DNA of 64,000 bases, from NCBI GenBank assembly GCA_946406115.1, contig OX291546.1:8363019-8427018 (forward strand). Reading direction: 5' to 3'. Positions 2,301 to 56,175 of the stretch are shown piece after piece; position 1 is the first letter of the stretch, and every line of letters begins with the position of its first letter. The notes under the pieces were generated by a model, which had not been told where the DNA came from, did not search any database, and saw only the letters and a program-made list of their open reading frames with translations. The stretch is from Apoda limacodes (lineage: Eukaryota > Arthropoda > Insecta > Lepidoptera > Limacodidae). The position numbers and the translations under genes were made by a program.

Positions 2301-3002
2301 GGAATATAGCCTAGAAAGTTTGAAAAAATACCTTATTATGGAACCCCTCTTTCAAGTCTGAACTATCAAATTGAATGAGTTTCATAGTCTGCTGAAAATC
2401 ACCTAGGTAGAAAATTTGCTTTGTTAGCAAATTAATTGCTTTAATTCTAACTTATTAAAATAAATGAACATTATGAAACTCTTAAATCAATTTGATTCTT
2501 AAAAAAAATTATATTAATGTAAATGTACAGAAATATACTCAATACTTACTAACATGGCATGTATGATGTATTTTGGGGAAGTCATAAACAAAGAAAGATT
2601 ATTTCTATGTATGTATATTTATGTTGTATTCTTTAAATCTATAAATATTTGTGTATTTGTAGGATTTATGCAAAAAATTAGCAAGTAGCAACAAGGAACA
2701 TTGTGAATTTTTTTCACCTAAACTCTCCATCAATGAAGAATGGCATCTCATAAATTGTTTATGCCAGACTATATTGGTTAAGTTTTCATAGCTTCTAGAG
2801 AATTAAAATTCTAATAAATTATGATAAAATACTTTTTACTGCCATTTTTTTAAGTAAACATTCCTTTGTTTGATCTCAAGTACCTACGTAAACACTTGAT
2901 TTATATTGTGTCAGCTTTGCATTTAGTACATAGCTTTAGTCAAAAATTATCGTTAATTATATAAAGCATCTTTCCAGAATTTACTCAATTACATTCCATA
3001 GT
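2301..3002. other. gene-free spacer upstream of Atf6 exons
   Basis: AT-rich. The missing 5' exon(s) of Atf6 may lie here or further left, but I could not recognise a convincing start-codon exon ending in the required phase. Confidence 0.4.
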
Positions 3003-3310
3003 ATTAGGGCTCGCACGGTCTTAGCAGACCATTTATGCATTTGCCAGAGTCAAAGTCAATTATATTATATCGTATCGTGGCGCGGGCGTTACCGCGCGTC
3101 CTCGTTTTCAAGACCCAAGATTGGGCGGGAGATTTGGTGTGGATCTTCAGACATTGCGCGTCATGTCCTGCTTATTTCTTCATAATTCACTATTCATGAG
3201 CCTTTTGTAAAACATTGCTAAAATATATACATCGAAAGTCACTAAATGAATTTAGAAAAATTAAACAGAAAAAAAAAACCACTCCTTCTTAAGATTCGCG
3301 CCAAAATTCC
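3003..3310 (+). repeat. dispersed repeat of about 300 bases, inverted copy at 55.64-55.98 kb
   Basis: It begins 'gggctcgcacggtcttagca', has a GC-rich middle (gcgcgggcgttaccgcgcgtcctcg) and ends 'cttaagattcgcgccaaaa'. The whole segment recurs in reverse complement at 55,640-55,976 with few changes. The copy here is just upstream of Atf6 exon 3527; the other is just upstream of Ana2. Confidence 0.8.
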
Positions 3311-3526
3311 CATATATACTTTGTTTAATTTGCCCCCAAAAACTTGTTGTTTTTGTGTTTGTTTTAATATGCCAATTTGGTAGGCAAAGGACATAAACAA
3401 TACAGCCTTATCTAGTGTCTTTTTTTCTTTTATATTAAATGTGAAGTTTGGGTTTCTTCTGTTGAATCCATGTGTAAAAAATAATATGACTTGTTTAAAA
3501 ACTATTCATTTACGTTTTATTTTTAG

Positions 3527-9500: not shown

Positions 9501-12022
9501 TTCAGACTGTTTTAGAAATTAGAAAAGTTTGTTACAATATACGTCACCACATTTTAACCTGGTGACTGTAGTATTGATTTCTGACCACTGCACTGTGTCA
9601 GAAAAGTTTGTTGCACTTTATTATTATTTTTGTACTACCTACATGTAAACGTTACAGCTAAATTAAATGGCATGGTAAAGATTTAACACTATTATGCCTA
9701 CATTATAAGGTATATACATTATTAAGAAAGAAGTTTAACTGAGAAAAACTTGATATAGATCATATTTCACATATTTTTTTTGTTTAGATTATGATGATGG
9801 TGAAAACCGTACTTACACTGATTGTCAGAATGTTACGATGAATCCTGGTGATTTCATAAACCAAACTGAAAGCATAAGAATAGCTAGCGATCTTAACCGA
9901 TGGATTGGAGGCGTAAAGTCATTGAACTGGTCCCATAATGCTCCTAGGGATAGACGAAAAGTTTACTTGAGTGAAGAAAAAATTAATGGTGAGTTTTGAA
10001 ATTCACGACATTTTAAAAATAATTTGAATTTGTGCATACCAATTGCTTGGTACTGACCTATTTCACTAGCAGTAAATGTTATGGAAGATAAGTTATTAAT
10101 TTTAACTATCTGAAAGAATTATATAATTAGTTAGGACCATTTTACTCCGAAGTAATCGAAAATCTTTTTTGGTTACGGATCTATTAGTAATTGTGTACTT
10201 TTATACCACTAAGATAGCAAATAAGCTTAAGGTCCGCCTGATGGTAAGCGGTCACCGTAGCCTATGGACGCTTGCAACACCAAAGGTATCACTCGCGCGT
10301 TGCCGATCCTTCAAAAATCTAATAACTTCTTTCTTAAAGAACCTCATACTGTAGTCCTTAGAGGAAACCTTGGCAGGGAGCTCATTCTACAACGCAAGCG
10401 TTCGCGAGAGAAGTTTCTCTGAAACCACACTGTACGCAACCGTTTCGGTTCTATTAGGTTCTATATATTTTTTTGTATCTTTTTTTTTACATAACCGATT
10501 ACTATGCAATTGTGTGATTGGTTATACGTTAAAATTATGTAATTTATTTAGTGAAATAACTACCTGCCGCTGACTCACGATTATTTTAAAATTTACTTAA
10601 TCTAGTTATGAAGCTGAAATTTGGCATGTTGATTTATTACGGGGTGCAGACATCCACTAAGAAAGAATTTTATGTTAGGGACCCCCCATACTGTAGTCCT
10701 TATAGAATACCGTGGCAGGCTCATTTCACTACCTAAGTGTTCGGTTTTTTTTATATTCCCGTATTTATTTGGAAAAAATATTTGTGAATGGTTTTGATTC
10801 TATTTATGGATTTAAGACGTCGGTTTTCAAGTATATATTTTTGTTGCAGGAGGATTGTTAGAAACTTACAGATTGTTTAACAAAATGAGTATAGATAACA
10901 ATATTTTAGATTTTCCTGGCAGTTATAAAAGTCCTGTAAAAAATCTAAAAGAGAGATCACGATTACGTCGCATGAGAAAGAATAAGGACTTGGATTTTCC
11001 TCATAATGAAATAATTGACTATGGAACACTTTATCCAAAACCTAGCAGAAAAGCGGTAAACGACTTTGACATGGATGATTTTGGCGAATGGAATGCACTA
11101 CTGGAAGCCTTACATAGACGAGACGATACATTTTATGTGGTAGGCGTAGGTAAAGGAGAACACCTATTGCTACCAGCGGTATCGCACAACGTTACTAGAC
11201 CTCCGAAAATGGCGCTAATTTTACCAGCTCGTACTGGTAACGGTAAGTTCGTTAAAGATATAATCACCAATCACCATCGCGGACTATTTACGAACTATAT
11301 CGAAAAGTGACCATTAAATAAATGTTTGATGGGTTTAAAACTTAATAGTGTATTATAAATACACGTCTCCATTGGAAAAAAAAAATTGGATAAAAAATCT
11401 TGGTAAGAAAGATTTTAGTATGTTGAAAGTGCGGTAACAGCTTTCTAGTAAATCCTTTAAATCCCGGTCCCATATGTTGCTTAGGGCCTTTTTGGATTAG
11501 CCTAACGTGGAACGAAGTAAGATTTTCGTTTCGATTTATTGTGAACCTGGTTTAATTTCAGATTCTATGATGAACGGTCACGTAACACTTATGCAAATTG
11601 ACTGCTCTGTCGTCAACACAACGTTGGTCAAACTAAAGTCAGATGCATTGCCAGGTAATGTGAAGACTAAACCTACTCACAAAGCAAAACCCTACCACGA
11701 GGACCCTAATACCGAACAAAAGAAAGTAAATAGGAGTAAGTTTAGTGTTATCAACAATGACATAGTAAACATGAACAAAGGCATTATAAATAATAGGTCA
11801 CTAGATAAAAGCGAAGGAAATATTTCTGGTGACATAAATGTTATGAACGAAAGTGTGTCACGTCATAAGTTAGATGATCGCAAAGAAGATATTTTTGCTG
11901 AATACGTTTTGTCTAAATTAAGGTTAGAGAAGAATGTATCCAATAATTTAAAGGATAATGTACAAATAAATAAGGACAATGTTACAAAAAGTAAAGTAAA
12001 AATGAAAAAAGATGTAACATGA
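3527..12022 (+). CDS. Atf6: ATF6: membrane-bound bZIP transcription factor (ER stress sensor), 5' end not found
   Basis: ATF6 resides in the ER membrane. On unfolded-protein stress it moves to the Golgi, is cut by S1P and S2P, and its N-terminal half activates chaperone genes. Exons with matching phases and GT-AG boundaries: 3527-3716, 4483-4607, 6230-6336, 6415-6478, 6712-6983, 7703-7902, 8137-8287, 9150-9247, 9332-9423, 9788-9988, 10850-11242, 11562-12022 (TGA). The first exons are acidic and Ser-rich (activation region). Across 7902/8137 lies the bZIP basic region, [16 protein letters not shown], then a leucine zipper. Exon 9150 codes the membrane segment ([17 protein letters not shown]); exon 9332 has an S1P-type RHLL site. 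The luminal part keeps family blocks: [25 protein letters not shown] and LMQIDCSVV. The first exon here opens in phase 1, so at least one earlier exon with the start codon is missing. Introns hold only transposon debris. Identity is near certain; exon ends are read by eye. Confidence 0.93.
3985..4060 (+). repeat. LINE 3'-tail remnant
   Basis: 'aatatttattcaaataggtttctgagaac...tttgaattgtcg' resembles 44,020-44,075, in the same orientation. It looks like a LINE 3' end. It lies in an Atf6 intron. Confidence 0.45.
4985..5395 (+). repeat. SINE-like/LINE-tail interspersed repeat
   Basis: It contains the block 'tgggataaaaagtagcc' twice (about 5125 and 5263), then 'catcaaaattggtccagcag', 'gtaacaaacgcaaag' and the end 'tttataatattagtgcg'. 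These are hallmarks of a very common lepidopteran repeat. The 73-codon open frame inside is not a gene. It lies in an Atf6 intron. Confidence 0.65.
5950..6005 (+). repeat. fragment of the 'gggttccgta' interspersed repeat
   Basis: 'caagtccgcgcaccatgggttccgtaccac' matches the start of the larger copies at 42,965 and 50,495. It lies in an Atf6 intron. Confidence 0.55.
7125..7330 (+). mobile_element. RTE-type LINE C-terminal fragment
   Basis: Translation gives ...[20 protein letters not shown], then a broken [17 protein letters not shown] part. It matches the tails at 24.7 kb (+) and 61.7-61.9 kb (-). It has stops and a frameshift and lies in an Atf6 intron. Confidence 0.65.
8525..8770 (+). repeat. 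SINE-like interspersed repeat, second copy
   Basis: 'tagctttcacccgcgtcgga ... ctacggcaactccttaattgtag' and the end 'tttataatattaagatgg' make this a diverged relative of the repeat at 4985-5395. It lies in an Atf6 intron. Confidence 0.55.
9452..9617. repeat. MITE of about 165 bases in an Atf6 intron
   Basis: The terminal inverted repeats AGTGCAACAAACTATTCTGAC (9452-9472) and its reverse at 9597-9617 differ at one position. An inner pair 'ccggtgactgt' / 'cctggtgactgt' is also seen. No target duplication could be fixed. Confidence 0.65.
10195..10465 (-). mobile_element. LINE family A 3' end (copy 2)
   Basis: Read on the minus strand, this is the 3' tail of LINE A. The plus strand shows 'accactaagatagcaaataagcttaaggtccgcctgatggtaagcggtcaccgtagcctatggacgcttgcaac', as at 35.6 and 55.0 kb, then RT C-terminal sequence as far as the 'gttctattaggttctat' region. 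It lies in the Atf6 intron before exon 10850. A second small scrap is at 10,688-10,735. Confidence 0.75.
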
Positions 12023-14352: not shown

Positions 14353-14361
14353 CGGGAAATA
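14353..14361. repeat. 9-bp flank repeat (left), CGGGAAATA
   Basis: CGGGAAATA stands directly before the left inverted terminus and again directly after the right one (28,298-28,306). This is the pattern of a target-site duplication. Confidence 0.75.
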
Positions 14362-14530
14362 ACCAGTGTGAAGTTAGCGGCCTAAGTTAGCGGCTTTTTA
14401 TAATCCGACCAAATTAAAAAGTAAAGGATTTTAATGAAATAATTTACTGAATTAAACGGATATAACAATAAATAGACCGAAATAATGAGAAACCGGTCAA
14501 AAATTAAACAAATATATATATAATTTAAAT
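14362..14530 (+). repeat. left terminal inverted repeat
   Basis: It holds a direct doublet of the core GTTAGCGGC (14,373-14,382 and 14,386-14,394), then unique sequence (ataatccgaccaaattaaaaag ... gagaaaccggtcaaaaatt) that passes into the first satellite unit. Confidence 0.85.
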
Positions 14531-17500
14531 AATAAGTAAGAGAATTTTCACAATGTGATACTTATCGGCCTAAAAGGTCATCATAAAAATGCGGTAACAC
14601 TTAGTGACGCATATCAAATTGAGCCTCTTTAAACCAGAAACCATATCAAGTTTTCAAATCACACCTATCTCGGGGTTAACTGTGAGTAAAATGGTTAGCG
14701 GCGTAAAAAATATTTTCTTTCAAAATTTCAAACACACCGTAAATCTGTTAGTTGAGGAAAAAGTTACAATCAAATGCCGTTGAAACAAGCATTTTGTATT
14801 GTTCTTATTAATAAATATTGCTACATGTGTAATACCTCTTCTATTTAAATAATAAAAAAATAAAAGTTGAAGAAAATTTTACAATGTGATACTTATCGGC
14901 CTAAAAGGTCATCATAAAAATGCGGTAACACTTAGTGACGCATATCAAATTGAGCCTCTTTAAACCAGAAACCATATCAAGTTTTCAAATCACACCTATC
15001 TCGGGGTTAACTGTGAGAAATATGGTTAGCGGCCTAAAAATTATTTTCTTTCAATATTTCAAACACACCGTAAATCTGTTAGTTGAGGAAAAAGTTACAA
15101 TCAAATGCTGTTGACACAACCATTTTGTATTGTTCTTATTAATAAATATTACTACATGTATGTGTGTCTTCAATTTAAATAATAAAAAAAATTGAATAAA
15201 ATTTCACAATGTGATACTTATTGGCATAAAAAGTTATCATGAAAATGCGGTAACACTTATTGACGCATATCAAATTGAGCCTCTTTAAATCAGAAACCAT
15301 ATCAAGTTTTCAAATCACACCTATCTCGGGGTTAACTGTGAGTAAAATGGTTAGCGGCGTAAAAATATTTTCTTTCAAAATTTCAAACACACCGTAAATC
15401 TGTTAGTTGAGGAAAAGTTACAATCAAATGCCGTTGAAACAAGCATTTTGTATTGTTCTTATTAATAAATATTGCTACATGTGTAATACCTCTTCTAATT
15501 AAATAATAGAAATAAAAGTTTAAGAAAATTAGAAAATGTGATATTTATCGGCCTAAAATGTCATCATAAAAATGCGGTAACACTAAGTGACGCATGTCAA
15601 ATTGAGCCTCGTTAAACCAGAAAGCATATGAAGTTTTCAAATCACACCTATCTCGGGGTTAACTGTAAGAAAAATGGTTAGCGGCCTAAAAATTATTTTC
15701 TTTCGAAATTACAAACACACCGTAAATCTGTTGGATAAGGAAAAAGTAACAATGAAAGGCTGTTGAAACAAGCATTTTGTATTGTTCTTATTAATAAATA
15801 TTACAACATGTGTAACACCTCTTCAATTTAAATAATAAAAAATTAACAGTTGACGAAAATTTCACAATGTGATACTTATTGGCATAAAAAGTCATCATGA
15901 AAATGCGGTAACACTTAGTGACGCATATCAAATTGAGCCTCTTTAAACCAGAAACCATATCAAGTTTTCAAATCACACCTATCTCGGGGTTAACTGTGAG
16001 AAATATGGTTAACGGCGTAAAAAATATTTTCTTTCAAAATTTCAAACACACCGTAAATCTGTTAGTTGAGGAAAAAGTTACAATCAAATGCTGTTGACAC
16101 AAGCATTTTGTATTGTTCTTATTAATAAATATTACTACATGTGTGTGTCTTCAATTTAAATAATAAAAAAAATTGAATAAAATTTCACAATGTGATACTT
16201 ATTGGCATAAAAAGTTATCATGAAAATGCGGTAACACTTATTGACGCATATCAAATTGAGCCTCTTTAAACCAGAAACCATATCAAGTTTTCAAATCACA
16301 CCTATCTCGGGGTTAACTGTGAGAAATATGGTTAACGGCGTAAAAAATATTTTCTTTCAAAATTTCAAACACACCGTAAATCTGTTAGATGAGGAAAAAG
16401 TTACAATCAAATGCTGTTGACACAAGCATTTTGTTTTGTTCTTATTAATAAATATTGCTACATGTGTAATACCTCTTCTATTTAAATAATAAAAAAATAA
16501 AAGTTGAAGAAAATTTCACAATGTGATACTTATTGGCATAAAAAGTCATCATGAAAATGCGGTAACACTTAGTGACGCATATCAAATTGAGCCTCTTTAA
16601 ACCAGAAAGCATATGAAGTTTTCAAATCACACCTATCTCGGGGTTAACTGTAAGAAAAATGGTTAGCGGCCTAAAAATTATTTTCTTTCGAAATTACAAA
16701 CACACCGTAAATCTGTTGGATAAGGAAAAAGTAACAATGAAAGGCTGTTGAAACAAGCATTTTGTATTGTTCTTATTAATAAATATTACAACATGTGTAA
16801 CACCTCTTCAATTTAAATAATAAAAAATTAACAGTTGAAGAAAATTTCACAATGTGATACATATTGGCATAAAAAGTTATCATGAAAATGCGGTAACACT
16901 TAGTGACGCATATCAAATTGAGCCTCTTTAAACCAGAAAGCATATGAAGATTTCAAATCACACCTATCTCGGGGTTAACTGTAAGAAAAATGGTTAGCGG
17001 CCTAAAAATTATTTTCTTTCGAAATTACAAACACACCGTAAATCTGTTGGATAAGGAAAAAGAAACAATGAAAGGCTGTTGAAACAAGCATTTTGTATTG
17101 TTCTTATTAATAAATATTACAACATGTGTAACACCTCTTCAATTTAAATAATAAAAAATTAAAAGTTGAAGAAAATTTCACAATGTGATACATATTGGCA
17201 TAAAAAGTTATCATTAAAATGCGGTAACACTTAGTGACGCATATCAAATTGAGCCTCTTTAAACCAGAAAGCATATGAAGTTTTCAAATCATACCTATCT
17301 CGGGCTTAACTGTGAGAAAAATGGTTAACGGCGTAAAAAATATTTTCTTTCAAAATTTCAAACACACCGTAAATTGTTAGTTGAGGGAAAAGCTATAGTC
17401 AAATGCTGTTGAAACAAGCATTTTGTATTGTTCTTATTATTAAATATTACTACATGTGTAACACCTCTTCAATTTAAATAATAAAAAATTAAAAGTTGAA

Positions 17501-19794
17501 GAAAATTTCACAATGTGATACTTATTGGCATAAAAAGTCATCATGAAAATGCGGTAACACTTAGTGACGCATATCAAATTGAGCCTCTTTAAACCAGAAA
17601 GCATATCAAGTTTTCAAATCACACCTATCTCGGGGTTAACTGTGAGAAAAATGGTTAGAGGCCTAAAAATTATTTTCTTTCGAAATTACAAACACACCGT
17701 AAATATGTTGGATAAGGAAAAAGTAACATTGAAAGGCTGTTGAAACAAGCATTTTGTATTGTTCTTATTAATAAATATTACTACATGTGTAACACCTCTT
17801 CAATTTAAATAATAAAAAATTAAAAGTTGAAGATAATTTTTCAATGTGATACATATTGGCATAAAAAGTCATCATGAAAATGCGGTAACACTTAGTGACG
17901 CATATCAAATTGAGCCTCTTTAAACCAGAAAGCATATGAAGTTTTCAAATCACACCTATCTCGGGATTAACTGTGAGAAAAATGGTTAGCGGCCTAAAAA
18001 TTATTTTCTTTCGAAATTACAAACACACCGTAAATCTGTTGGATAAGGAAAAAGTAACAATGAAAGGCTGTTGAAACAAGCATTTTGTATTGTTCTTATT
18101 AATAAATATTGCTACATGTGTAATACCTCTTCTATTTAAATAATAAAAAAATAAAAGTTGAAGAAAATTTCACAATGTGATACTTATTGGCATAAAAAGT
18201 CATCATGAAAATGCGGTAACACTTAGTGACGCATATCAAATTGAGCCTCTTTAAACCAGAAAGCATATGAAGTTTTCAAATCACACCTATCTCGGGGTTA
18301 ACTGTGAGAAAAATGGTTAGCGGCCTAAAAATTATTTTCTTTCGAAATTACAAACACACCGTAAATATGTTGGATAAGGAAAAAGTTACAGACAAATGCT
18401 GTTGAAACAAGCATTTTGTATTGTTCTTATTAATAAATATTACTACATGTGTAACACCTCTTCAATTTAAATAATAAAAAATTAAAAGTTGAAGATAATT
18501 TCACAATGTGATACATATTGGCATAAAAAGTTATCATGAAAATGCGGTAACACTTAGTGACGCATATCAAATTGAGCCTCTTTAAACCAGAAAGCATATG
18601 AAGTTTTCAAATCACACCTATCTCGGGGTTAACTGTGAGAAAAATGGTTAGCGGCCTAAAAATTATTTTCTTTCGTAATTACAAACACACCGTAAAAATG
18701 TTGGATAAGGAAAAAGTTACAGACAAATGCTGTTGAAACAAGCATTTTGTATTGTTCTTATTAATAAATATTACTACATGTGTAACACCTCTTCAATTTA
18801 AATAATAAAAAATTAAAAGTTGAAGATAATTTCACAATGTGATACATATTGGCATAAAAAGTTATCATGAAAATGCGGTAACACTTAGTGACGCATATCA
18901 AATTGAGCCTCTTTAAACCAGAAATCATATGAAGTTTTCAAATCACACCTATCTCGGGGTTAACTGTGAGAAAAATGGTTAGCGGCCTAAAAATTATTTT
19001 CTTTCGTAATTACAAACACACCGTAAATCTGTTGGATAAGGAAAAAGTAACAATGAAAGGCTGTTGAAACAAGCATTTTGTATTGTTCTTATTAATAAAT
19101 ATTACTACATGTGTAACACCTCTTCAATTTAAATAATAAAAAATTAAAAGTTGAAGAAAATTTCACAATGTGATACTTATTGGCATAAAAAGTTATCATA
19201 AAAATGCGGTAACACTTAGTGACGCATATCAAGTTGAGCCTCTTTAAACCAGAAAGCATATGAAGTTTTCAAATCACACCTATCTCGGGGTTAACTGTGA
19301 GAAAAATGGTTAGCGGCCTAAAAATTATTTTCTTTCGTAATTACAAACACACCGTAAATATGTTGGATAAGGAAAAAGTTACAGACAAATGCTGTTGAAA
19401 CAAGCATTTTGTATTGTTCTTATTAATAAATATTACAACATGTGTAACACCTCTTCAATTTAAATAATAAAAAATTAACAGTTGAAGAAAATTTCATAAT
19501 GTGATAGTTATTGGCATAAAAAGTCATCATGAAAATGCGGTAACACTTAGTGACGCATATCAAATTGAGCCTCTTTAAACCAGAAAGCATATGAAGTTTT
19601 CAAATCACACCTATCTCGGGGTTAATTGTGAGAAAAATGGTTAGCGGCCTAAAAATTATTTTCTTTCAAAATTTCAAACACACCGTAAATCTGTTGGTTA
19701 AGGAAAAAGTAACAATCAAAGGCTGTTGAAACAAGCATTTTGTATTGTTCTTATTAATAAATATTACTACATGTGTAACACCTCTTCAATTTAA
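14531..19794 (+). repeat. satellite array, left arm: 16 units of about 331 bp
   Basis: The marker gcggtaacac occurs at 14591, 14922, 15247, 15574, 15905, 16228, 16559, 16890, 17221, 17551, 17882, 18213, 18544, 18875, 19206 and 19537, mostly exactly 331 bases apart. The first units are 323-331 long and more varied; later units are homogeneous. Each has 'cacacctatctcggggttaactgt' and a 'tggttagcggcctaaaaa' block. No open frame is conserved. Confidence 0.95.
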
Positions 19795-22577
19795 TTGGTG
19801 TGATTTGAAAACTTAACATGGTTTCTAGTTTAAGGAGGCTGAATTTGATATGCGTCACTAAGTGTTACCGCATTTTCATGATGTCTTTTTATGCCAATAA
19901 CTATCACATTATGAAATTTTCTTCAACTTTTAATTTTTTATTATTTAAATTGGAGAGGTGTTACACATGTAGTAATATTTATTAATAAGAACAATACGAA
20001 ACGCTTGTCTTAACAGCCTTTGATTGTTACTTTCTCCTTAACCAACAGATTTACGGTGTGTTTGAAATTTTGAAAGAAAATATTTTACGCCGCTAACCAT
20101 TTTTCTCACAGTTAACCCCGAGATAGGTGTGATTTGAAAACTTGATATGGTTTCTGGTTTAAAGAGGCTCAATTTGATATGCGTCACTAAGTGTTACCGC
20201 ATTTTCATGATGTCTTTCTATGCCAATAAGTATCACATTGTGAAATTTTCTGCAACTTTTAATTTTTTATTATTTAAATTGCAGAGGTGTTACACACGTA
20301 GTAGTATTAATTAATAAGAACAATACAAAACGCTTGTCTCAACAGCCATTGATTGTTACTTTTTCCTTAACCAACAGATTTACGGTGTGTTTGAAATTTT
20401 GAAAGAAAATATTTTTTACGCCGCTAACCATTTTTCTCACAGTTAACCCCGAGATAGGTATGATTTGAAAATTTGATATGGTTTCTGGTTTAAAGAGGCT
20501 TAATTTGGTATGCGTTACTAAGTGTTACCGCATTTTCATGATGACTTTTTATGCCAATAAGTATCACATTGTGAAATTTTCTTCAACTTTTAATTTTTTA
20601 TTATTTAAATTGAAGACACACATACATGTAGTAATATTCATTAATAAGAACAATACAAAATGCTTGTTTCAACAGCATTTGACAGTTACTTTTTCCTCAA
20701 CAAACAGATTTACGGTGTGTTTGAAATTTTGAAAGAAAATATTTTTTACGCCGCTAACCATTTTTCTCACAGTTAACCCCAAGATAGGTGTGATTTGAAA
20801 ACTTGATATGGTTTCTGGTTTAAAGAGGCTCAATTTGATATGCGTCACTAAGTGTTACCGCATTTTCATGATGACTTTTTATGCCAATAAGCATCACATT
20901 GTGAAATTTTCTTCAACTTTTAATTTTTTATTATTTAAATTGAAGAGGTGTTACACATGTAGTAATATTTATTAATAAGAAAAATACAAAACGCTTGTCT
21001 CAACAGCCTTTGATTGTTACTTTCTCCATAACCAACAGATTTACGGTGTGTTTGAAATTTTGAAAGAAAATATTTTTTACGCCGCTAACCATTTTTCTCA
21101 CAGTTAACCCCGAGATAGGTGTGATTTGAAAACTTGATATGATTTCTGGTTTAAAGAGGCTCAATTTGATATGCGTCACTAAGTGTTACCGTATTTTCAT
21201 GATGACTTTTTATGCCAATAAGCATCACATTGTGAAATTTTCTTCAACTTTTAATTTTTTATTATTTAAATTGAAGAGGTGTTACACATGTAGTAATATT
21301 TATTAATAAGAACAATACAAAATGCTTGTTTCAACAGCATTTGACAGTTACTTTTTCCTCAACAAACAGATTTACGGTGTGTTTGAAATTTTGAAAGAAA
21401 ATATTTTTTACGCCGCTAACCATTTTTCTCACAGTTAACCCCAAGATAGGTGTGATTTGAAAACTTGATATGGTTTCTGGTTTAAAGAGGCTCAATTTGA
21501 TATGCGTCACTAAGTGTTACCGCATTTTCATGATGACTTTTTATGCCAATAAGCATCACATTGTGAAATTTTCTTCAACTTTTAATTTTTTATTATTTAA
21601 ATTGAAGAGGTGTTACACATGTAGTAATATTTATTAATAAGAAAAATACAAAACGCTTGTCTCAACAGCCTTTGATTGTTACTTTCTCCATAACCAACAG
21701 ATTTACGGTGTGTTTGAAATTTTGAAAGAAAATATTTTTTACGCCGCTAACCATTTTTCTCACAGTTAACCCCGAGATAGGTGTGATTTGAAAACTTGAT
21801 ATGATTTCTGGTTTAAAGAGGCTCAATTTGATATGCGTCACTAAGTGTTACCGTATTTTCATGATGACTTTTTATGCCAATAAGCATCACATTGTGAAAT
21901 TTTCTTCAACTTTTAATTTTTTATTATTTAAATTGAAGAGGTGTTACACATGTAGTAATATTTATTAATAAGAACAATACAAAATGCTTGTTTCAACAGC
22001 ATTTGACAGTTACTTTTTCCTCAACAAACAGATTTACGGTGTGTTTGAAATTTTGAAAGAAAATATTTTTTACGCCGCTAACCATTTTTCTCCAGTTAAC
22101 CCCAAGATAGGTGTGATTTGAAAACTTGATATGGTTTCTGGTTTAAAGAGGCTCAATTTGGTATGCGTTACTAAGTGTTACCGCATTTTCATGATGACTT
22201 TTTATGCCAATAAGCATCACATTGTGAAATTTTCTTCAACTTTTAATTTTTTATTATTTAAATTGAAGAGGTGTTACACATGTAGTAATCTTTATTAATA
22301 AGAAAAATACAAAACGCTTGTCTCAACAGCCTTTGATTGTTACTTTCTCCTTAACCAACAGATTTACGGTGTGTTTGAAATTTTGAAAGAAAATATTTTT
22401 TACGCCGCTAACCATTTTTCTCACAGTTAACCCCGAGATAGATATGATTTGAAAACTTGATATGGTTTCTGGTTTAAAGAGGCTTAATTTGGTATGCGTT
22501 ACTATGTGTTACCGCATTTTCATGATGACTTTTTATGCCAATAAGTATCACATTGTGAAATTTTCTTCAACTTTTAA
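19795..22577 (-). repeat. satellite array, right arm part 1: 9 inverted units
   Basis: The reversed marker accgcattt/accgtattt occurs at about 19867, 20197, 20527, 20857, 21188, 21518, 21850, 22180 and 22511. The switch of orientation falls at about 19,795, in a different phase of the unit from the left arm, so the junction is not a perfect palindrome. The array stops in mid-unit at 22,577 (caacttttaa) where the inserted block begins. Confidence 0.93.
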
Positions 22578-22749
22578 AGTTTAGCACACACACACACACA
22601 CACACTCCAGCGCGCGGGTATACTAGGTTCACTAATATACCCGGGCGCTTTGACTAGTTAGATTTCAATAATAATAGGCGAGGGCTGAAGTGTTTCTTGC
22701 CGTTTCTTCTCTTTAGAACGCCTTTGCTTTTCCGAAACGGCGGTAAATT
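22578..22749. other. junction of inserted block with (CA)n
   Basis: A (CA)n run (22,587-22,606) and a short GC-richer stretch mark the left border of the retroelement block. The part from about 22,610 on may be LTR or 3' flank of the BEL/Pao relic. Confidence 0.45.
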
Positions 22750-23252
22750 TTAGTCAGATTCAAATTTAGTTGTAAGAGCAGTTGCCCAAGCCGAGGTTCG
22801 TGTCCAGAACACCGCTGCGCAAACCGCCCCAACTTTTCGCTGAAGACTGTGGCTTCAATTATCGTCAGTAACTTGACAGGGTAGCAGAACTAGTCTTGTG
22901 AAGGATCTTCGTACTAGACCTCGGATAGTGTTCAGCTCTGCCACTCTTGAAATGCCATCAGAACCAGGAAATAGGCGTGTAACTCGACCTTAACGCCAGC
23001 TCAACGTTGGCACATTGTCTTCTTGAAGCAAGACGAGATCGCCGAGAGACAAACATCCCCTTTTGAGTTTTCCATTGTGATCTTTGTTGTAGTTCGCTCA
23101 CAGACTCCCTTTGCCAACGATCCCAGAAATGTTGACGAATTTGTTCAAGCCTCTCGTAGCGTTTAAGTGACGCAGGTCTGAAATCTTCTAATGAAGGGGA
23201 TGGCAATGCAGTTAGAGGCCTTCCAATCGGAAAGGGGATCGTGTAACGGAGG
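22750..23252 (-). mobile_element. BEL/Pao retrotransposon relic (integrase C-terminal end)
   Basis: On the minus strand, 'FPIGRPLTALPS', then YERLEQIRQHFWDRWQRESV and SELQQRSQW are the hallmark C-terminal end of Pao/BEL polyproteins. After a frameshift it goes on as SRVAELNTIRGLVRRSFTRL, also typical. Only the 3' end of the element is present; frames are broken. Confidence 0.8.
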
Positions 23253-24350
23253 TCCGTAATTTGGGTGTGCTGATGGATCACGGCCTTCGCTTTGAGGGAC
23301 ACATTGTTGAGATCGCACGTAACTGCTTTTACAGGCTTAAAGTCCTATATCGATTAAGAGATTTCTGGAGTAAGGAACTACGCACGTTGCTGTGTGACTC
23401 ACTGATCCTATCGAAGCTGAGCTATGCAGATGCAGTGTATGGTCCCAGACTGCTGGCAAAGACTGAACTCATAGTACAAATTGCATGTGCAAGGTACATT
23501 TTTGACATTCCCCCTCGTACTCACATTGGTCCGTACTTAAATACCTCGAATTTATTGAGAATGTCATTACGTAGGAAACTACACCTAGCTACGCTTATAT
23601 TCGGGGTCCTGAAAACTAATAGACCTGAATACTTATTCGCAAAATTTAAGTGGCGAAGAGTTGACAGCACACGGGATATGAGGACGCTCAATAGTATTTT
23701 AAAAATACCTCAGCACCGTACAACAGCATTCCGTAGAAGTTTTAGGTATGCGGCCACCAAATGTTGGAATAACTTGCCCCCACCCATTCGCGCACTCAAT
23801 ACAGTAACCACCTTTAAGTTACAACTAAAGAAACATTTTTTACAGTATCAAAAGAAACACGAGAACAGCGCCAGGTGGCCAAGATATTTTCAACACGCTT
23901 TAATTGAATAGGGATAGATAAATAGAAAGTGCAATATTTAATTTTATTTATTTATTTATTTATTTATATTTAATTTATTAGCTTCATTAGTGTATTATCT
24001 TAGTATATGTAGGTACCTACATATAAAGGGTATAATTTCACTAAAATCAGTAGTGAAATCGTTTTTAATTATAGTTAACAGCGACACCACGACCGTGCTA
24101 CTTGCTCCGGTGCAGATTCCTACCTTGGGCTCCGCAGAAAATCAGAGTTAATCACAAGCTGAGCTGGTGTCCATTTCAACATCACAGCGCTCACGATATG
24201 CCTACTTACAAAACAACTCCTTTATCTTATTGTCTTTTTCGTTTGTAATTTTTATTTTATGTAATTTAACTATTTTTAAATATATGTTTTTAACTTTGTG
24301 AGCGAAATGATGTTGAATAAATGTTTGTCTATGTCTATGTCTATGTCTAA
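23240..24350 (+). mobile_element. LINE (CR1/Jockey-like) C-terminal RT piece
   Basis: The open frame 23,261-23,911 (216 codons) encodes the region after the RT catalytic core. It has NLGVLMDHGL..F, then LLCDSLILSKLSYADAVYGP, CARYIFDIPP and CWNNLPPPIRALNTVTTFK, the usual order at LINE C-termini. The stop is followed by about 420 bases of 3' region ending in a (TGTCTA)n tail (24,326-24,349). It is 5'-truncated and fused to the BEL/Pao relic. The frame is intact to its stop, so it is younger than most debris here. Confidence 0.8.
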
Positions 24351-24955
24351 ATGTCCATGCTGTGCCCACCCAAATATCAGTCGGAAACTCGAGGCTCGAA
24401 GTTGTTGGTCCAACTAGGTAGGTCCAACTTCGGGAAAGAGGTCAATCGTCGAATCCAACTCGGCTCAGCTGCGTTCGGAAAACTCCGCAACGTCTTTTCG
24501 TCCAAAATACCTCAGTGCGTGTTACCAGTAATGACATATGGCACTGAAACGTGGCCTCTAAATATAGGCCTTATAAGTAAGCTCAAAGTCACACAACGAG
24601 CTATGGAGAGGGCTATGCTCGGGGTTCCTCTGCGAGATTGAATCAGAAATGAGGAGATCCGTAGATGAACGAAAGTCACCGACATAGCCCAGCGCATTAG
24701 CAAGTTGAAGTGGCAGTGGACAGGGCACATAGTACGTAGAACTGATGGTCGATGGGGCCGAAAGGTTCTCGAATGGAGGCCACGGACTGGCAAATGCAGC
24801 GTCAGAAGACCGCCCACAAGGTGGTCAGACGACATAGCGAAGGACGCAGGAAGACGCTGGATGCAGGCCGCTTCCAACCGTTTCCTTTGGAAAACTATGG
24901 GGGAGGCCTATGTTCAGCGGTGTACTTCTTGCGGCTGAGATGATGATGATGACAG
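24350..24955 (+). mobile_element. RTE-type LINE 3' end
   Basis: Translation gives LGRSNFGKEVNRRIQLGSAA, QCVLPVMTYGTETWPL, RAMERAMLGV and, in the next frame, KWQWTGHIVRRTDGRWGRKV ... GEAYVQRCTS, ending in a gatgatgatgatga tail. The same protein end is found in reverse at 61,693-62,200. It has in-frame stops. Confidence 0.85.
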
Positions 24956-25620
24956 GTCTCATAGTGATAACACAGACGTAGTTCAACTCTCCCTGCACCT
25001 GAGTTTGACGAGTGACAAAATTCTAGAGCAATATCCCACAGCAGAATTAGTTAATTTGAGAGATTTTAACGCCCACCATCGTGAGTGGCCCAGTTGTTGA
25101 TCCAATGACGACACAGGGATATCTACCCATGAATTTGTTTTGACCTATGTATTCTTTCTGCTGGTACTTTTTCCAACCAGAATACCAGATATAGAGGACC
25201 ATACGAGCCCCGTACTAGATCTTCTGCTGACTACACGTCCGAACGGATATTCCGTCTCAGAGGATGCGCCTCTTGGCACCTCGGACTACTGTCTCGTTCG
25301 GAATCAAGTGTCATGCACACAACCCGATCCATCTGGGCCAACTAATTGGCGTCGTGAGTGGGATTATAAGTCAGCAGACTTGATGGATTGGGAGAATTTT
25401 ATGCATAGTACCCGTGGAGGCAGCTCTGCTTTAGCTCAGAAGATCCTGACGTCTTTGCAGCCGCAGTCACTGAGACAATCCTCCCTGGTATGGAATGATT
25501 TATTCCTAACCCGCGAGTAGTTGCCGGTTTCAAGAACCGGCCGTGGTTTAATCAATCTTGCAGAGAAGCTAAAATTCTTTAGCAAATTGCGTAAGAGGCT
25601 TCGAACACGGCTCGTAATAA
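24956..25620 (+). mobile_element. LINE endonuclease/linker fragment
   Basis: It carries 'LRDFNAHHREWPS' (APE-type endonuclease GDFNAHH motif), then VLDLLLTTRPNGYSVSEDAP and LGTSDYCLVRNQVS (the usual LGTSDHCLV), and ends in 'WFNQSCREAK'. It is a different LINE from the one at 23.2 kb. It contains a stop after 'REWPSC' and is cut at 25,620 by the satellite. Confidence 0.75.
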
Positions 25621-25625
25621 TAACT

Positions 25626-28140
25626 CGTAAAATATTTTTTACGCCGCCAACCATTTTTCTCACAGTTGACCCCGATATAGGTGTGATTTGAAAACTTGAT
25701 ATGGTTTCTGGTTTAAAAAGGCTCAAGTTGATATGCGTCACTAAGTGTTACGACATTTTCATGATGTCTGTTTATGCCAATAAGTATCACATTGTGAAAT
25801 TTTCTTCAACTTTTTATTTTTTATTATTTAAATTGAAGAGGTTTTACACATGTAGTAATATTTATTAATAAGAACAATACAAAATTCTTGTGTCAACAGC
25901 ATTTGATTGTAACTTTTTCCTCAACTAACAGATTTACGGTGTGTTTGAAATTTTGAAAGAAAATATTTTTTACGCCGCTAACCATTTTTCTCACAGTTAA
26001 CCCCGAAATAGGTGTGATTTGAAAACTTGATATGGTTTCTGGTTTAAAGAGGCTCAATTTGATATGCGTCACTAAGTGTTACCGCATTTTCATGATGACT
26101 TTTTATGCCAATAAGTATCACATTGTGAAATTTTCTTCAACTTTTAATTTTTTATTATTTAAATTGAAGACACACATACATGTAGTAATATTTATTAATA
26201 AGAACAATACAAAATGCTTGTTTCAACAGCATTTGACAGTTACTTTTTCCTCAACAAACAGATTTACGGTGTGTTTGAAATTTTGAAAGAAAATATTTTT
26301 TACGCCGCTAACCATTTTTCTCACAGTCACCCCAAGATAGGTGTGATTTGAAAACTTGATATGGTTTCTGGTTTAAAGAGGCTCAATTTGATATGCGTCA
26401 CTAAGTGTTACCGCATTTTCATGATGACTTTTTATGCCAATAAGCATCACATTGTGAAATTTTCTTCAACTTTTAATTTTTTATTATTTAAATTGAAGAG
26501 GTGTTACACATGTAGTAATATTTATTAATAAGAAAAGTACAAAACGCTTGTCTCAACAGCCTTTGATTGTTACTTTCTCCTTAACCAACAGATTTACGGT
26601 GTGTTTGAAATTTTGAAAGAAAATATTTTTTACGCCGCTAACCATTTTTCTCACAGTTAACCCCGAGATAGGTGTGATTTGAAAACTTGATATGATTTCT
26701 GGTTTAAAAAGGCTCAATTTAATATGCGTCACTAAGTGTTACCGCATTTTCATGATGTCTTTTTATGCCAATAAGTATCACATTGTGAAATTTTCTTCAA
26801 CTTTTAATTCTTTATTATTTAAATTGAAGAGGTGTTACACATGTAGTAATATTTATTAATAAGAACAATACAAAATGCTTGTTTCAACAGCCTTTCATTG
26901 TTACTTTTTCCTTATCCAACAGATTTACGGTGTGTTTGTAATTACGAAAGAAAATAATTTTTAGGCCGCTAACCATTTTTCTCACAGTTAACCCCGATAT
27001 AGGTGTGATTTGAAAACTTCATATGCTTTCTGATTTAACGAGGCTCAATTTGACATGCGTCACTAAGTGTTACCGCATTTTTATGATAATCTTTTAGGCC
27101 GATAAGTATCACTTTTTGAAATTTTCTTTAACTTTTATTTTTTTATTATTTAAATAGAAGAGGTATTACACATGTAGCAATATTTATTAATAAGAACAAT
27201 ACAAAATGCTTGTTTCAACAGCCTTTGATTGTTACTTTTTATTAACTAAGAGATTTACGGTGTGTTTGAAATTTTGAAAGAAAATAATTTTTACGCCGCT
27301 AACCATTTTTCTCACAGTTAACCCCGAGATAGGTGTGATTTGAAAACTTGATATGGTTTCTGGTTTAAAAAGGCTCAATTTAATATGCGTCACTAAGTGT
27401 TACCGCATTTTCATGATGTCTTTTTATGCCAATAAGTATTACATTGTGAAATTTTCTTCAACTTTTAATTCTTTATTATTTAAATTGAAGAGGTGTTACA
27501 CATGTAGTAATATTTATAAATAAGAACAATACAAAATGCTTGTTTCAACAGCCTTTGATTGTTACTTTTTCGTTAACTAACAGATTTACGGTGTGTTTGA
27601 AATTTTGAAAGAAAATATTTTTTAGGCTGCTTACCATTTTTCTCACAGTTAACCCCGAGATAGGTGTGATTTGAAAACTTCATATGCTTTCTGGTTTAAC
27701 GAGGCTCAATTTGACATGCGTCACTAAGCGTTACCGCATTTTTATGATAATCTTTTAGGCCGATAAGTATCACTTTTTGAAATTTTCTTTAACTTTTATT
27801 TTTTTATTATTTAAATAGAAGAGGTATTACACATGTAGCAATATTTATTAATAAGAACAATACAAAATACTTGTTTCAACAGCATTTGATTGTTACTTTT
27901 TCCTTAACCAACAGATTTACGGTGTGTTTGAAATTTTGAAAGAAAATAATTTTTACCATTTTTCTCACAGTTCACCCCGAGATAGGTGTAACTTGAAAAC
28001 TTGATATGGTTTCTGGTTTAAAGAGGCTCAATTTGATATGCGTCACGAAGTGTTACCGCATTTTTGTGATGACCTTTTAGGCCGATAAGTATCACATTGT
28101 GAAATTTCCTTTAACTTTAATTTTTTATTATTTAAATTAT
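25626..28140 (-). repeat. satellite array, right arm part 2: 8 inverted units
   Basis: Reversed markers occur at about 25750, 26080, 26410, 26743, 27073, 27403, 27733 and 28055. The unit at 26,005-26,335 is nearly the same as that at 20,451-20,780, including the rare 'gaagacacacatacatgtag' variant. Toward the right end units are more varied, as at the left end. Confidence 0.93.
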
Positions 28141-28297
28141 ATATATAATTATATATTTTTGACCGGTTTCTCATTATTTCGGTCTATTTATTGTTATATC
28201 CGCTTAATTCAGTAAATTATTTCATTAAAATCCTTTACTTTTTAATTTGGTCGGATTATAAAAGGCCGCTAACTTAGGCCGCTAACTTCACACCGGT
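28141..28297 (-). repeat. right terminal inverted repeat
   Basis: Reverse complement of 14,362-14,530 with only a few differences. It ends ggccgctaacttaggccgctaacttcacaccggt. Confidence 0.85.
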
Positions 28298-28306
28298 CGG
28301 GAAATA
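28298..28306. repeat. 9-bp flank repeat (right), CGGGAAATA
   Basis: Identical to 14,353-14,361 and directly next to the right terminus. Confidence 0.75.
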
Positions 28307-29585: not shown

Positions 29586-30111
29586 GTGTGAATAAATACA
29601 TCAGTGTACTTGTTATCACCGCTGCAAGAATGCAACACAAATTGCATCCAAAAACATTTATATAAAAATGCATAATTTTTGTCATGTAATGTTTCGTAAT
29701 AATAAGTTAATATTAAGTATATATTTACACAATCAAAACTATTTTCCTTATAGGGACTAGTTTAGATTTAAGAAAATGTTATAACAATCAGTGTAAAATT
29801 GTATTAAGTTAGGTAAAAGTAGAGTAGGTTTGTTTCATTTCCCCTCTTTACTATTTGTTGATATCAAAAATAATATTGTGTGAGTACCGACATGTTGACT
29901 TTGTACGCACGACTATCCCCAAAAAAGCGGGAAATTTAGTTTAATATATGTATATAAAACATATGCCATTTGTTGTGCGAAAATGTACAGAACTACTATG
30001 TAAAGTTCTATATAGACCGTATGTACGGTTATTAAGTTACAGGCGAAAACAGTTAGCATGTTGAGTATTGTACATTCTTTCTCCCTCACTCCTACGATAA
30101 TAGACTGCGAT
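29586..30111. other. gene-free spacer
   Basis: AT-rich; nothing recognised. Confidence 0.4.
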
Positions 30112-30420
30112 AGACATGGCGTCCAAAAAACTTGGTGTACTCAACAGAGCGAAGCAGTACTTCACGTCGGGGCAAAGGTTGTTACTTTACAAGTCGCAAG
30201 TTCGGCCCCATATGGAGTACTGCTGCCATCTCTGGGCAGGTGCACCCGGATACCAGCTTGGCCCTTTTGACTCGGTTCAACGACGGGCTGTGAGAATTGT
30301 CGACGATTCCAAACTCACTTGCGGTATCGAGCCCTTAAGTTTGAGGAGAGACTTTGCCTCACTGTGTGTGTTCTACCGCTTGTACAATGGGTTGTGTTCT
30401 GAGGAATTGTTCGAAATTAC
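30112..30420 (+). mobile_element. LINE family A (copy 3)
   Basis: The open frame 30,116-30,420 starts KKLGVLNRAKQYFTSGQRLL and has QVRPHMEYCCHLWAGAPGYQ, then FASLCVFYRLYNGLCSEELF. This is the best-preserved copy of the LINE A RT C-terminal region, but it is cut abruptly at about 30,417 with no 3' tail. Confidence 0.8.
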
Positions 30421-30662: not shown

Positions 30663-30836
30663 TATCCATGCATTCTCAATTATTAAAAAAAAAAGGATAC
30701 TTACCAAACATAACCCCTATTTGAAATAAATTTTGATTGCTTTTGTTTAATTACTAACTTAATAACATTGGATTTCTTTGTATTCTCTTGATTGGTAGGC
30801 ATGTGTATTGAATGAAGAATATGCATTGATTACAAA

Positions 30837-31487
30837 ATGTACTGTCTAAGGTTGACAAGATTATTGCGAAAACAATGTAATATATTTGAAGTTTTACCTA
30901 AATATGGTTTACATAACCATCCTATGAGATTTATGGAAACAGAAAATAGATGGCAGCAAAAAGATGGTGTTTCGCGACAGTGGCAGTTAATCTATAAAGC
31001 ACCTATGGAGAAGTGGCTAAAGTATTTATCAGTGTATTTGACCGTTTCTACTGGAATTATTGGAAGTGCAGGAATCTATTACGCTATATTTGTTTACGAC
31101 AGAACGAAACTCAATACACCCGTTGTTCTTGGAGATGATGTGGTTATAGCCAATAGCAGCTTTGAATATCTGACATATCTTAGTGCATTTCTTATCTTCC
31201 ATATAGCGGTCAAACTTTTGCTTTCAAAGTATGTTGTAAGACTATACCAGAATGGCGACAATTATTTAGCTATTTTTAGAGGCCATATGTTTAATTCTAT
31301 AAAGAAACATGAATTTCAGCTACAAGAATTTAAAAAATTGAAACCTTCAATGATCATCTCATGGAGCGATGCAAGATTTGCACTTGGAAAAAAACAAGCA
31401 ATAATTCTAGACAGCCATTTCAAGACTCCAGAATATTTCAATTATTTATTATATAAAAAGAAAGCTGATAACCTTGACAATGACTGA
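30837..31487 (+). CDS. Tmem186: TMEM186-like mitochondrial inner-membrane protein
   Basis: Single-exon gene of 216 codons. In mammals TMEM186 is a mitochondrial inner-membrane protein that takes part in building the membrane arm of respiratory complex I (MCIA complex). Visible here: a basic, mitochondrial-type N-terminus (MYCLRLTRLLRKQ); the family-type entry RQWQLIYKAPMEKWLKYLSV before the first membrane segment (about residues 63-82, YLTVSTGIIGSAGIYYAIF); a second membrane segment (about 106-125, YLTYLSAFLIFHIAVKLLL); then RLYQNGDNYLAIFRGHMFNS, matching the 'ILYLNESGTMLRVAHLNFWG' region of the family. The ATG at 30,837 is the first in frame and gives the expected length (about 200-220). Upstream are LINE A and dispersed-repeat pieces, so its promoter lies within about 170 bases of them. 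The family call rests on topology and the post-TM block. Confidence 0.72.
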   Translation: MYCLRLTRLLRKQCNIFEVLPKYGLHNHPMRFMETENRWQQKDGVSRQWQLIYKAPMEKWLKYLSVYLTVSTGIIGSAGIYYAIFVYDRTKLNTPVVLGDDVVIANSSFEYLTYLSAFLIFHIAVKLLLSKYVVRLYQNGDNYLAIFRGHMFNSIKKHEFQLQEFKKLKPSMIISWSDARFALGKKQAIILDSHFKTPEYFNYLLYKKKADNLDND

Positions 31488-32114: not shown

Positions 32115-32329
32115 AGATCAGTAATTATGGTGGAAAAGCGTGGAGAACTTGTGTGTCAAACTGACTGGTCCAAGGTCTGACTGGGTCGGGAAAACTTGGT
32201 CCAATTTAACCCTACAAAGACACTGCTAAGAAAACCCCATTCACTGAATTTAGTCCCACACCATCTACAATTGGTGTTGACATCTCCAGCTATGTTCAGT
32301 TCTGATATCATTTGCAAGTCAAGATAAAG

Positions 32330-32594
32330 CTGGCATCTAAGAAAACTTGGTGTACTCAACAGATTGAAGCAGTACTTCATGTTGGGCAAAGTTTGCTACT
32401 TTACTAGTCACAAGTTCGGCCCCAAATGGAGTACATACATCTGCCAACTTTGGGCAGGTGCACCCAGATACCAGCTTGGCCCTTTTGACTTGATTCAACC
32501 ATGAGCTGTGGGAATTGTTGTCGATCCCAAAACTCTCTTGCCGTATCGAGTCCTTAAGTCTGAGGAGAGGCTTAGCCTTCCTGTGTGTGTTCTA
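32330..32594 (+). mobile_element. LINE family A, decayed (copy 4)
   Basis: 'aagaaaacttggtgtactcaacagattgaagcagtacttcatg' and 'cacccagataccagcttggcccttttgact' match the 30.1-kb copy with more changes. It stops at 'tgtgtgttcta' (about 32,594), where LINE B begins. Confidence 0.75.
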
Positions 32595-35606: not shown

Positions 35607-36085
35607 ATGTTTTTTTTTTTTTTTTTTTTTCACTAAGGTGGCAAACAAGCTTACGGTCCGCCTGATGGTAAGCGGTCACCGTAGCCTATGGACGCTTGCA
35701 ACAACAGGGGTATCACTTCTTCCTTGAAGAACTCCATACTGTAGTCCTTGCAGAAAACCTTCGCAGGGAGCTCATTCCACAACTTAAACGTTCGCGGGAG
35801 GAAGTCTCTGAAACCGCACTGTTCGCGACCATTTAGGTTCTAAAGTGTGAGAATGAATTCCCTGCCGATAGCGAGCGGTGCGATGGTAGAAAGTAGCCGT
35901 GGGCATCATTTCGAACAATTCCTCAGAACACAACCCATTGTACAAGCGGTAGAACACACACAGGGAGGCAAAGTCTCTCCTCAGACTTAAGGGCTCGATA
36001 CCGCAAGTGACTTTGGAATCGTCGACAATTCTCACAGCCCGTCGTTGAACCGAGTCAAAAGGGCCAAGCTGGTATCCAGGCGGTG
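35607..36085 (-). mobile_element. LINE family A with poly-A tail (copy 5)
   Basis: The poly-T at 35,611-35,631 is the 3' A-tail of a minus-strand LINE. Next comes the standard 3' tail (cactaaggtggcaaacaagcttacggtccgcctgatgg), then RT C-terminal codons with FASLCVFYRLYNGLCSEELF read on the minus strand. The element ends (5' truncation) at about 36,085. Confidence 0.85.
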
Positions 36086-42091: not shown

Positions 42092-42220
42092 TTAAGAGGG
42101 ACCCCAACGCATATATACATTTGCTTTATGGGTGTTAAGAGGGACCCCAACGCATATATACATTTGCTTTATGGGTGTTAAGAGGGACCCCAACGCGCGT
42201 ATACATTTGCTTTATGGGTG
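42092..42220 (+). repeat. 43-bp tandem repeat, 3 copies
   Basis: 'ttaagagggaccccaacgca' plus 'tatatacatttgctttatgggtg' begins at 42,092, 42,135 and 42,178. The first two copies are identical; the third has 'gcgcgtatac' in place of 'gcatatatac'. Confidence 0.95.
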
Positions 42221-42374
42221 TTAAGCTGATATCGACAATGTTAATATGTGTTACTGTTAATGAGTTACCTAGGATAGTATAGAATGCCACCGGGATATCG
42301 AACCCCTCCAGGTGCTTTATAACCTTTCCAACGACACAACGCCGTAAAAGGAGAGATAACTTTTAACAACTGAC

Positions 42375-54987: not shown

Positions 54988-55130
54988 GTTTTTTTTTTTT
55001 TTTTTTTTTTTTTTATATACCACTAAGGTGGCAAACAAGCTTACGGCCCGCCTGATGGTAAGCGGTCACCGTAGCCTATGGACGCTTGCAACACCAGGGG
55101 TATCACTTGCGCGTTGCCGACCCTAAAGTA
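54988..55130 (-). mobile_element. LINE family A 3' end with poly-A tail (copy 6)
   Basis: The poly-T run (54,988-55,014) is the A-tail of a minus-strand LINE. It is followed by the same 3' tail as at 35.6 kb and truncated within about 110 bases. Confidence 0.8.
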
Positions 55131-55976: not shown

Positions 55977-56175
55977 CATTATAATATTAAAAAAATAAAA
56001 ATAAAAAAAAAGTTGGTGTATTACCTTACATTGTGTATTTTATGTATTGCAGCAGTTGTCAGTTCTTTTTCTTACTTTTGAAAGTGTGAATTTATGTTAG
56101 GAGTGTCAAAGTCAGTCAAGCAAGAATGATGTGGTCAACGTTTTAGATTTTATATTGTTCTTAAATACTTAAGAT

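Follow-up and report, generated by a model that had tools for sequence, protein, structure and literature searches.

A 14-kb satellite-armed foldback element, probably a DNA transposon, in the genome of Apoda limacodes

The 64-kb window, the whole stretch of Apoda limacodes DNA analysed here, contains a 13,936-bp block (14362-28297) with inverted ends, on either side of which the same 9 bp (CGGGAAATA) stand as a perfect direct repeat. About 33 copies of a 331-bp satellite unit make up nearly all of its two mirror-image halves. We interpret this block, with a probability of roughly 0.8, as a non-autonomous foldback-type DNA transposon that inserted here with a 9-bp target duplication. How satellites spread is a live question in genome evolution: transposons may carry them, or they may grow from what a transposon leaves behind once it has landed. 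Within this one element, the outer units seem to record a shared origin of the arms and the inner units their separate turnover, which makes it a datable case.

The two copies of CGGGAAATA, at 14353-14361 and 28298-28306 (both on the plus strand), agree in 9 of 9 bases and are the only ones in the window. They lie exactly at the ends of the near-identical inverted termini, and the sequences beyond them differ between the left and right sides, which supports the foldback transposon of the first-pass annotation on structural grounds and confirms its flanking 9-bp repeat. With a duplication of nine, moreover, the inverted repeats pair right out to their last bases (ACC...). The repeat is a single observation from one insertion; identical 9-mers were found in 98 of 2,000,000 random position pairs and, at the same spacing, in 3 of 50,046 pairs. 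Because the direct repeat happens to extend over 11 bases, these three pairs are probably the element's own match in three registers.

The outer, non-satellite domain of each terminal inverted repeat spans 142 bp, at 14362-14503 on the left (plus strand, beginning ACCAGTGTGAAGTTAGCGGCCTAAGTTAGCGGC) and at 28156-28297 on the right (minus strand). The two domains are identical at 139 of 142 positions (97.9%), with mismatches at positions 4, 34 and 95, and share the end sequence ACC[AG]GTGTGAAGTTAGCGGC. The near-identity previously proposed for the termini thus holds, while the proposed length of about 165 bases is slightly generous, the 142 bp being followed by an AT-rich transition to the first satellite unit (14504-14521, plus strand). 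Two tandem copies of GTTAGCGGC are located within the left terminus (14373-14394, plus strand) and are mirrored at 28265-28286. The sequence AAGTTAGCGG occurs twice at each element end and nowhere else in the window; termini standing singly within ordinary arrays, which had been put forward as the mark of a plain satellite block, were therefore not seen in the window.

The left arm comprises 16 tandem units, L01-L16, on the plus strand (14522-19787). The right arm comprises 17 minus-strand units (19795-28138), three of which (R08, R09 and R17) are incomplete, and is split by a 3,051-bp interruption at 22578-25628 into an inner part with the half unit R17, R16-R10 and the cut R09 (19795-22577) and an outer part with the cut R08 and R07-R01 (25629-28138). 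Every unit is of the 331-bp type and 92-98% identical to the consensus. The opposed arrays abut at the element centre (19788-19798), meeting without a spacer at about 19795, and there is no middle domain. With the interruption removed, the arms measure 5,433 and 5,450 bp, lengths possibly influenced by assembly, and are 93.5% identical over ungapped columns (a difference of about 6.5%). The unit counts and the near-equality of the arms were both correctly given by the first-pass annotation. No copies of the unit were found elsewhere in the 64-kb window. With extended inverted ends that consist mostly of tandem repeats, the block has the structure of a foldback-type element, and the head-to-tail tandem units together with their array-wise homogenisation are as expected of satellite DNA.

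As the equality of arm lengths depends on how array loss at the interruption is counted, we gave more weight, as evidence for a joint origin of the arms, to the correspondence between individual units. For the outer six units, a cut-off picked after the identity matrix had been seen, 4 of the 720 permutations scored at least as high as the pairing of each left unit with the right unit of the same rank, a count that includes this pairing. With any single pair removed, 1-4 of 120 permutations were as good, and with pairs 1 and 4 both removed, 3 of 24 were. When the 16 pairs were taken together, 58 of 5000 shuffles did as well, and the inner ten units displayed no left-right correspondence (4228 of 5000). 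Mean identity was highest at zero offset (93.32) among 13 offsets, the runner-up reaching 93.12. The positional correspondence between the arms is thus modest. Units also cluster by arm: 3 of 2000 label shuffles, made over 32 units, gave as large an excess of within-arm over between-arm identity, and a tree of 31 units contained 5 arm changes compared to 10.7 in shuffles, none of 500 being as low. Nine of the 27 inner branches of this tree are well supported, and these force only 2 arm changes. Some right-arm units are nearly or fully alike (R11 and R13, 100%; R06 and R14, and R10 and R12, 99%; R10/R12/R14, 97-99%). The positional correspondence of the outer units, its absence among the inner ones and the clustering of units by arm make it probable that the arms already contained several units at their formation and that the inner arrays turned over separately. 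The arms would have arisen as an inverted duplication already holding about five or six units each, after which the inner units may have been re-made separately in each arm by unequal exchange or conversion, as in an ordinary satellite.

The termini and the satellite units share short sequences. The motif GTTAGCGGC[CG]TAA is present in 25 of 33 units, in uniform orientation within each arm, and a 13-mer, GTTAGCGGCCTAA, is common to the terminus and unit L02. In a composition-weighted motif test, no shuffle of 1000 reached the L02 value; the signal was weak for the consensus (29 of 1000) and for L01 (34 of 1000), and the test was negative for R02 (238 of 1000). Same-strand local-alignment scores between terminus and unit were not significant, being reached by 569 of 1000 shuffles for the consensus and 108 of 1000 for L02. 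The similarity between terminus and unit amounts to one short motif.

The enzyme that moved the element is probably a Mutator-like (MULE) transposase, perhaps from the Phantom or Rehavkus branch, whose gene lies elsewhere. Only two features point to this class, the 9-bp duplication and the design of the arms; the duplication falls within the 8-11 bp range tabulated for the MULE group (PMC6446971). The MULE affiliation proposed earlier remains plausible on these two features, but the 13 ORFs of at least 70 amino acids that overlap the element gave no transposase match in Pfam, and neither did 7 further ORFs scanned in the window. An autonomous partner is plausible because complete MULEs have been reported from 88 lepidopteran species (PMC13359780). 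The transposase would bind the 142-bp ends, possibly also the GTTAGCGGC motif of most satellite units, and would have mobilised the element in cut-and-paste fashion. Exact searches of viral contigs, which are not insect genomes and carry little weight here, returned 0 matches to a 24-base double motif and 0 to a 35-base unit stretch; prokaryote contigs, of equally little weight, gave 0 and 0. A 16-base terminus pattern occurred in 5 viral contigs, presumably by chance, since blastn of the element against their available stretches gave nothing at E<=0.001. A protein search with an 87-codon ORF of the satellite yielded nothing at E<=10 among 2 candidates.

In the FB elements of Drosophila, as here, the inverted ends are long and contain tandem repeats. 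To name these as the nearest design, with much shorter units, as the first-pass annotation did, is incomplete, since Tetris of Drosophila virilis (repeats of ~220 bp) and Rehavkus-1_TC of Tribolium (164 bp) come nearer (PMC4079207, PMC10218199). Satellite repeats in inverted ends are therefore not new; what is unusual here is the arm length, the lack of a middle domain and the host. Tetris is likewise of the foldback type, with a flanking domain followed by tandem repeats in its inverted ends, target duplications of 8-10 bp, no transposase found, and a stretch common to flanking domain and repeat unit (37 bp, versus 9-13 bp here) (PMC4079207). Its flanking domain measures up to 866 bp, compared to 142 bp here, and its complete copies have ends of up to 1,735 bp around a middle domain, compared to 5.4-kb arms and no middle domain here (PMC4079207). 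As many as 66 copies of the Tetris repeat can stand in one array, and long arrays bracketed by two flanking domains have been seen by fibre-FISH (PMC4079207). Rehavkus-1_TC, a MULE-related element of Tribolium castaneum, carries short arrays of the satellite TCsat23 in its inverted ends, mostly of 5 and 8 units, and at 9.5 kb is smaller than the 13,936-bp element (PMC10218199); 9-bp duplications are tabulated for the Rehavkus group (PMC6446971). A transposase with a PHD finger is characteristic of Rehavkus; the present element gave no transposase match among its scanned ORFs. Tm1 of root-knot nematodes also has foldback-like ends with tandem repeats that vary in number, and 45 of 53 copies show 8-10 bp duplications; it includes non-autonomous forms and one form with a Phantom-type MULE transposase, and it differs in its 13-15 bp repeats and asymmetric outermost motifs (PMC3169594). 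Galileo, too, has tandem repeats inside its long inverted ends; these repeats vary independently between the two ends and in Galileo G of D. buzzatii hold secondary transposase-binding sites (cited as submitted in PMC3573991). It is, however, a P-type element with 7-bp duplications, ends of up to about 1.26 kb and two or three ~210-bp repeats, these in one subfamily (PMC3573991). Arthropod MULEs with a complete transposase have inverted ends of 13-1193 bp, long in some of them, and are transposase-coding; the words 'foldback' and 'tandem' are absent from the available text of that report (PMC13359780). A literature search whose coverage mostly excludes subscription journals turned up no title dealing with a lepidopteran foldback element that has satellite arms. 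Helentrons are a different type of element, without inverted arms. Those of oysters are mobile and carry satellite-like arrays (PMC7492417).

Several other explanations have to be weighed. Inversions occur within satellite arrays, and the inner arrays behave as satellite, so that the block might be an ordinary array with an inversion and the 9-bp repeat a product of chance or repair. We regard this as very improbable: the non-satellite inverted ends stop exactly at the 9-bp repeat, a coincidence at odds with the random-pair control, and the flanks are free of unit copies. Long palindromes are also a known type of artefact, but a foldback chimera of library or assembly would not readily account for arms about 6.5% apart with private unit types, nor for the unlike flanks beyond the duplication, and we give this explanation the least credence. 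Foldback structures have arisen in several superfamilies, Galileo being of the P type (PMC3573991, PMC3169594), and the element could belong to a group other than MULEs, for example P/Galileo-like, hAT or Merlin. This is unlikely, though by no means negligible, as 9-base duplications fit MULE/Rehavkus elements (PMC6446971) and Galileo copies have 7-bp ones (PMC3573991).

A stronger contender, to which we allow somewhat less than an even chance, is that a short-armed foldback element landed first and the satellite arrays grew in place, the array itself never having moved; such growth has been proposed for Tetris (PMC4079207). It is a variant of the foldback-transposon reading with another order of events. 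In its favor, the inner units are specific to each arm, and the most similar units (99-100%) are more alike than the termini; on the other hand, the correspondence of the outer five to six units points to arms that were probably multi-unit at formation, and near-equal counts (16 and 17) are not favoured by independent growth. Of the earlier suggestion that a whole array is itself mobile, movement of the ends is supported, but some array turnover may postdate insertion. Returning to the foldback transposon, we consider it possible, though less likely than not, that the complete 10.9-kb arm pair moves as one unit, its repeats acting as stacked putative transposase-binding sites. If so, each jump would seed a ready-made array of about 33 units in gene-bearing DNA, where it would then evolve as satellite.

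The interruption of the right arm is a mosaic of retroelement fragments, a cluster that would have entered later. One piece, presumably of BEL/Pao type, carries DUF5641 (Pfam PF18701, E=6.4e-9) in a minus-strand ORF at 22961-23344, and others look, by eye, like non-LTR retroelement fragments. About 146 bp of the array were lost at the insert, the unit register passing from 204 to 19, and the alignment of the arms contains about 143 gap columns near it. The segment 24513-24951 is 74% identical to 61680-62117 of the window, which adjoins and partly overlaps an ORF carrying RVT_1 at 62083-62550.

The element, a 13,936-bp block at 14362–28297, is flanked by the 9-bp direct repeat CGGGAAATA (14353–14361 and 28298–28306), which has only these two occurrences in the window. 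It starts with ACCAGTGTGAAG and, read from the opposite end, with ACCGGTGTGAAG, and its inverted termini (14362–14503 on the forward strand and 28156–28297 on the reverse strand) are identical at 139 of their 142 outermost bases. The direct repeat extends two further bases past the nine, and the inverted ends pair to the last base only if the duplication is nine bases long. Identical 9-mers occurred in 98 of 2,000,000 random position pairs of the window, and chance is a poor explanation of the repeat because the inverted repeats fix its position. An insertion-like structure, in which a 9-bp duplication encloses inverted satellite arms, is seen in the sequence.

The left arm comprises 16 satellite units (L01–L16) and the right arm 17 (R01–R17), numbered inward from the element ends, with R08, R09 and R17 incomplete. 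The unit is 331 bp long, and individual units are 92–98% identical to the consensus. Without a 3,051-bp insert in the right arm, the arms measure 5,433 and 5,450 bp and are 93.5% identical over ungapped columns, 335 of the 5,609 alignment columns being gapped. The opposed arrays abut at about 19795 without a spacer, the left one stopping at about a unit end and the right one inside a unit, some 156 bases in, and the element has no middle domain. The end-most units L01, L02 and R01 (3 of 33; 14522–15168 and 27821–28138) have a sequence type of their own in common, in which CGGCCTAAAAGG replaces the consensus TGGCATAAAAAG.

The insert (22578–25628) breaks the right arm with retroelement fragments, including a DUF5641 piece (PF18701) that we take to be BEL/Pao. 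Part of it is related, at 74% identity, to window DNA adjoining a reverse-transcriptase ORF (62083–62550, reverse strand; RVT_1, E = 7.5e-11). The unit register goes from 204 to 19 across the insert, where about 146 bp of the array are missing, and this stretch of the arm alignment contains about 143 gap columns. The longest run common to the two junctions, with 80 bases around each examined, is only 6 bases; therefore, there is no clear target duplication at the insert. All 13 stop-to-stop ORFs of at least 70 amino acids that overlap the element were scanned against Pfam: none matched a transposase, one matched DUF5641 (E = 6.4e-9), and two satellite ORFs gave sub-threshold CUB-like matches (E = 0.1).

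We compared left unit i with right unit i using shuffles, which ignore the kinship of adjacent units and whose counts are guides rather than exact probabilities. The correspondence of all 16 pairs was equalled by 58 of 5000 shuffles. For the outer six pairs, a cut picked after the matrix had been inspected, 4 of 720 permutations were as good, the true pairing being counted among the four; 1–4 of 120 were as good when any one pair was dropped, and 3 of 24 when pairs 1 and 4 were both removed. The outer four, five, seven and eight pairs gave 1/24, 1/120, 178/5040 and 1226/40320, respectively, and the correspondence was absent from the inner ten (4228 of 5000 shuffles as good). Among 13 offsets, zero gave the top mean arm-to-arm identity, narrowly (93.32 versus 93.12%).

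Identity is higher within arms than between them, by a difference that 3 of 2000 shuffles reach (32 units). A tree built from 31 of the 33 units, all except R08 and R17, requires 5 arm-label changes; shuffled labels require 10.7, none of 500 shuffles being as low, and the well-supported inner branches (9 of 27) force only 2 changes. R11 and R13 are identical (100%), and R10, R12 and R14 are 97–99% alike; units two apart in the right arm score 95.2% versus 93.5% for neighbours, and units three apart in the left arm 95.3% versus 94.3%. Taken together, the pair correspondence, the arm clustering and the near-identical units indicate that the arms are, in their outer parts, probably old inverted duplicates of one another, with the inner parts renewed separately in each arm. 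The termini differ by 2.1% and several unit pairs by 0–1%, which argues that some array turnover is probably younger than the ends' last likeness to each other. The outer-unit correspondence also suggests that each arm started out with several units.

The termini and units have a motif in common. GTTAGCGGC forms two tandem copies in the terminus, and GTTAGCGGC[CG]TAA is found in 25 of the 33 units (28 with GTTAACGGC permitted), in an orientation constant relative to the element end of the unit's own arm; elsewhere in the window GTTAGCGGC occurs once, at 62068. None of 1000 shuffles reached the 13-base identity between terminus and L02; 29 reached the 9-base identity to the consensus, 34 that to L01, and 238 the 8-base identity to R02. 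Terminus–unit similarity was not significant by plain alignment score. The motif resembles a 37-bp stretch that Tetris has in both of its domains (PMC4079207) and the secondary binding sites of Galileo repeats (PMC3573991), and may bind a transposase.

The element is of a known general plan, and its likeness to Mutator-like elements (MULEs), Tetris and Rehavkus falls short of assignment. Tetris (PMC4079207) and the TCsat23-bearing Rehavkus-1_TC (PMC10218199) are described with the same plan, but the arrays of their complete copies are shorter. Fibre-FISH of Tetris revealed long arrays with a flanking domain on both sides, and therefore the element's scale alone has precedent; the authors of the Tetris study suggested that transposition may have been disrupted by arrays of greater size (PMC4079207). 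The point of interest is that about 33 units are enclosed here by intact ends and an intact duplication. The element would have moved by cut-and-paste transposition, with a transposase, probably of a MULE, provided in trans; complete MULEs are reported for 88 lepidopteran species (PMC13359780).

The element lies in gene-bearing DNA, as a transmembrane protein 186-like gene (30816–31487, forward strand) is located 2.5 kb to its right. This ORF has 53 protein matches at E ≤ 0.001, four of them named transmembrane protein 186; a species is named for 26 of these matches, in every case a moth or butterfly. The top match has 61% identity over 97% of the query, and the highest identity, 68%, covers only 54%. 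These matches mark the window as nuclear DNA of a lepidopteran, and their identities are spread too flatly to point to one family. Two ORFs at 59030–59521 and 60025–60696 appear retroelement-like by eye and have no Pfam match. An interspersed repeat family occupies 1–554, 10199–10453, 30109–30417, 32323–32594, 35610–36080 and 54994–55124 (pairs 75–98% identical), and an inverted pair of about 345 bp (2998–3322 and 55643–55987, 87% identical) is probably another dispersed element. A tandem repeat at 42092–42225 consists of 3.1 copies of a 43-bp unit with 96% matches.
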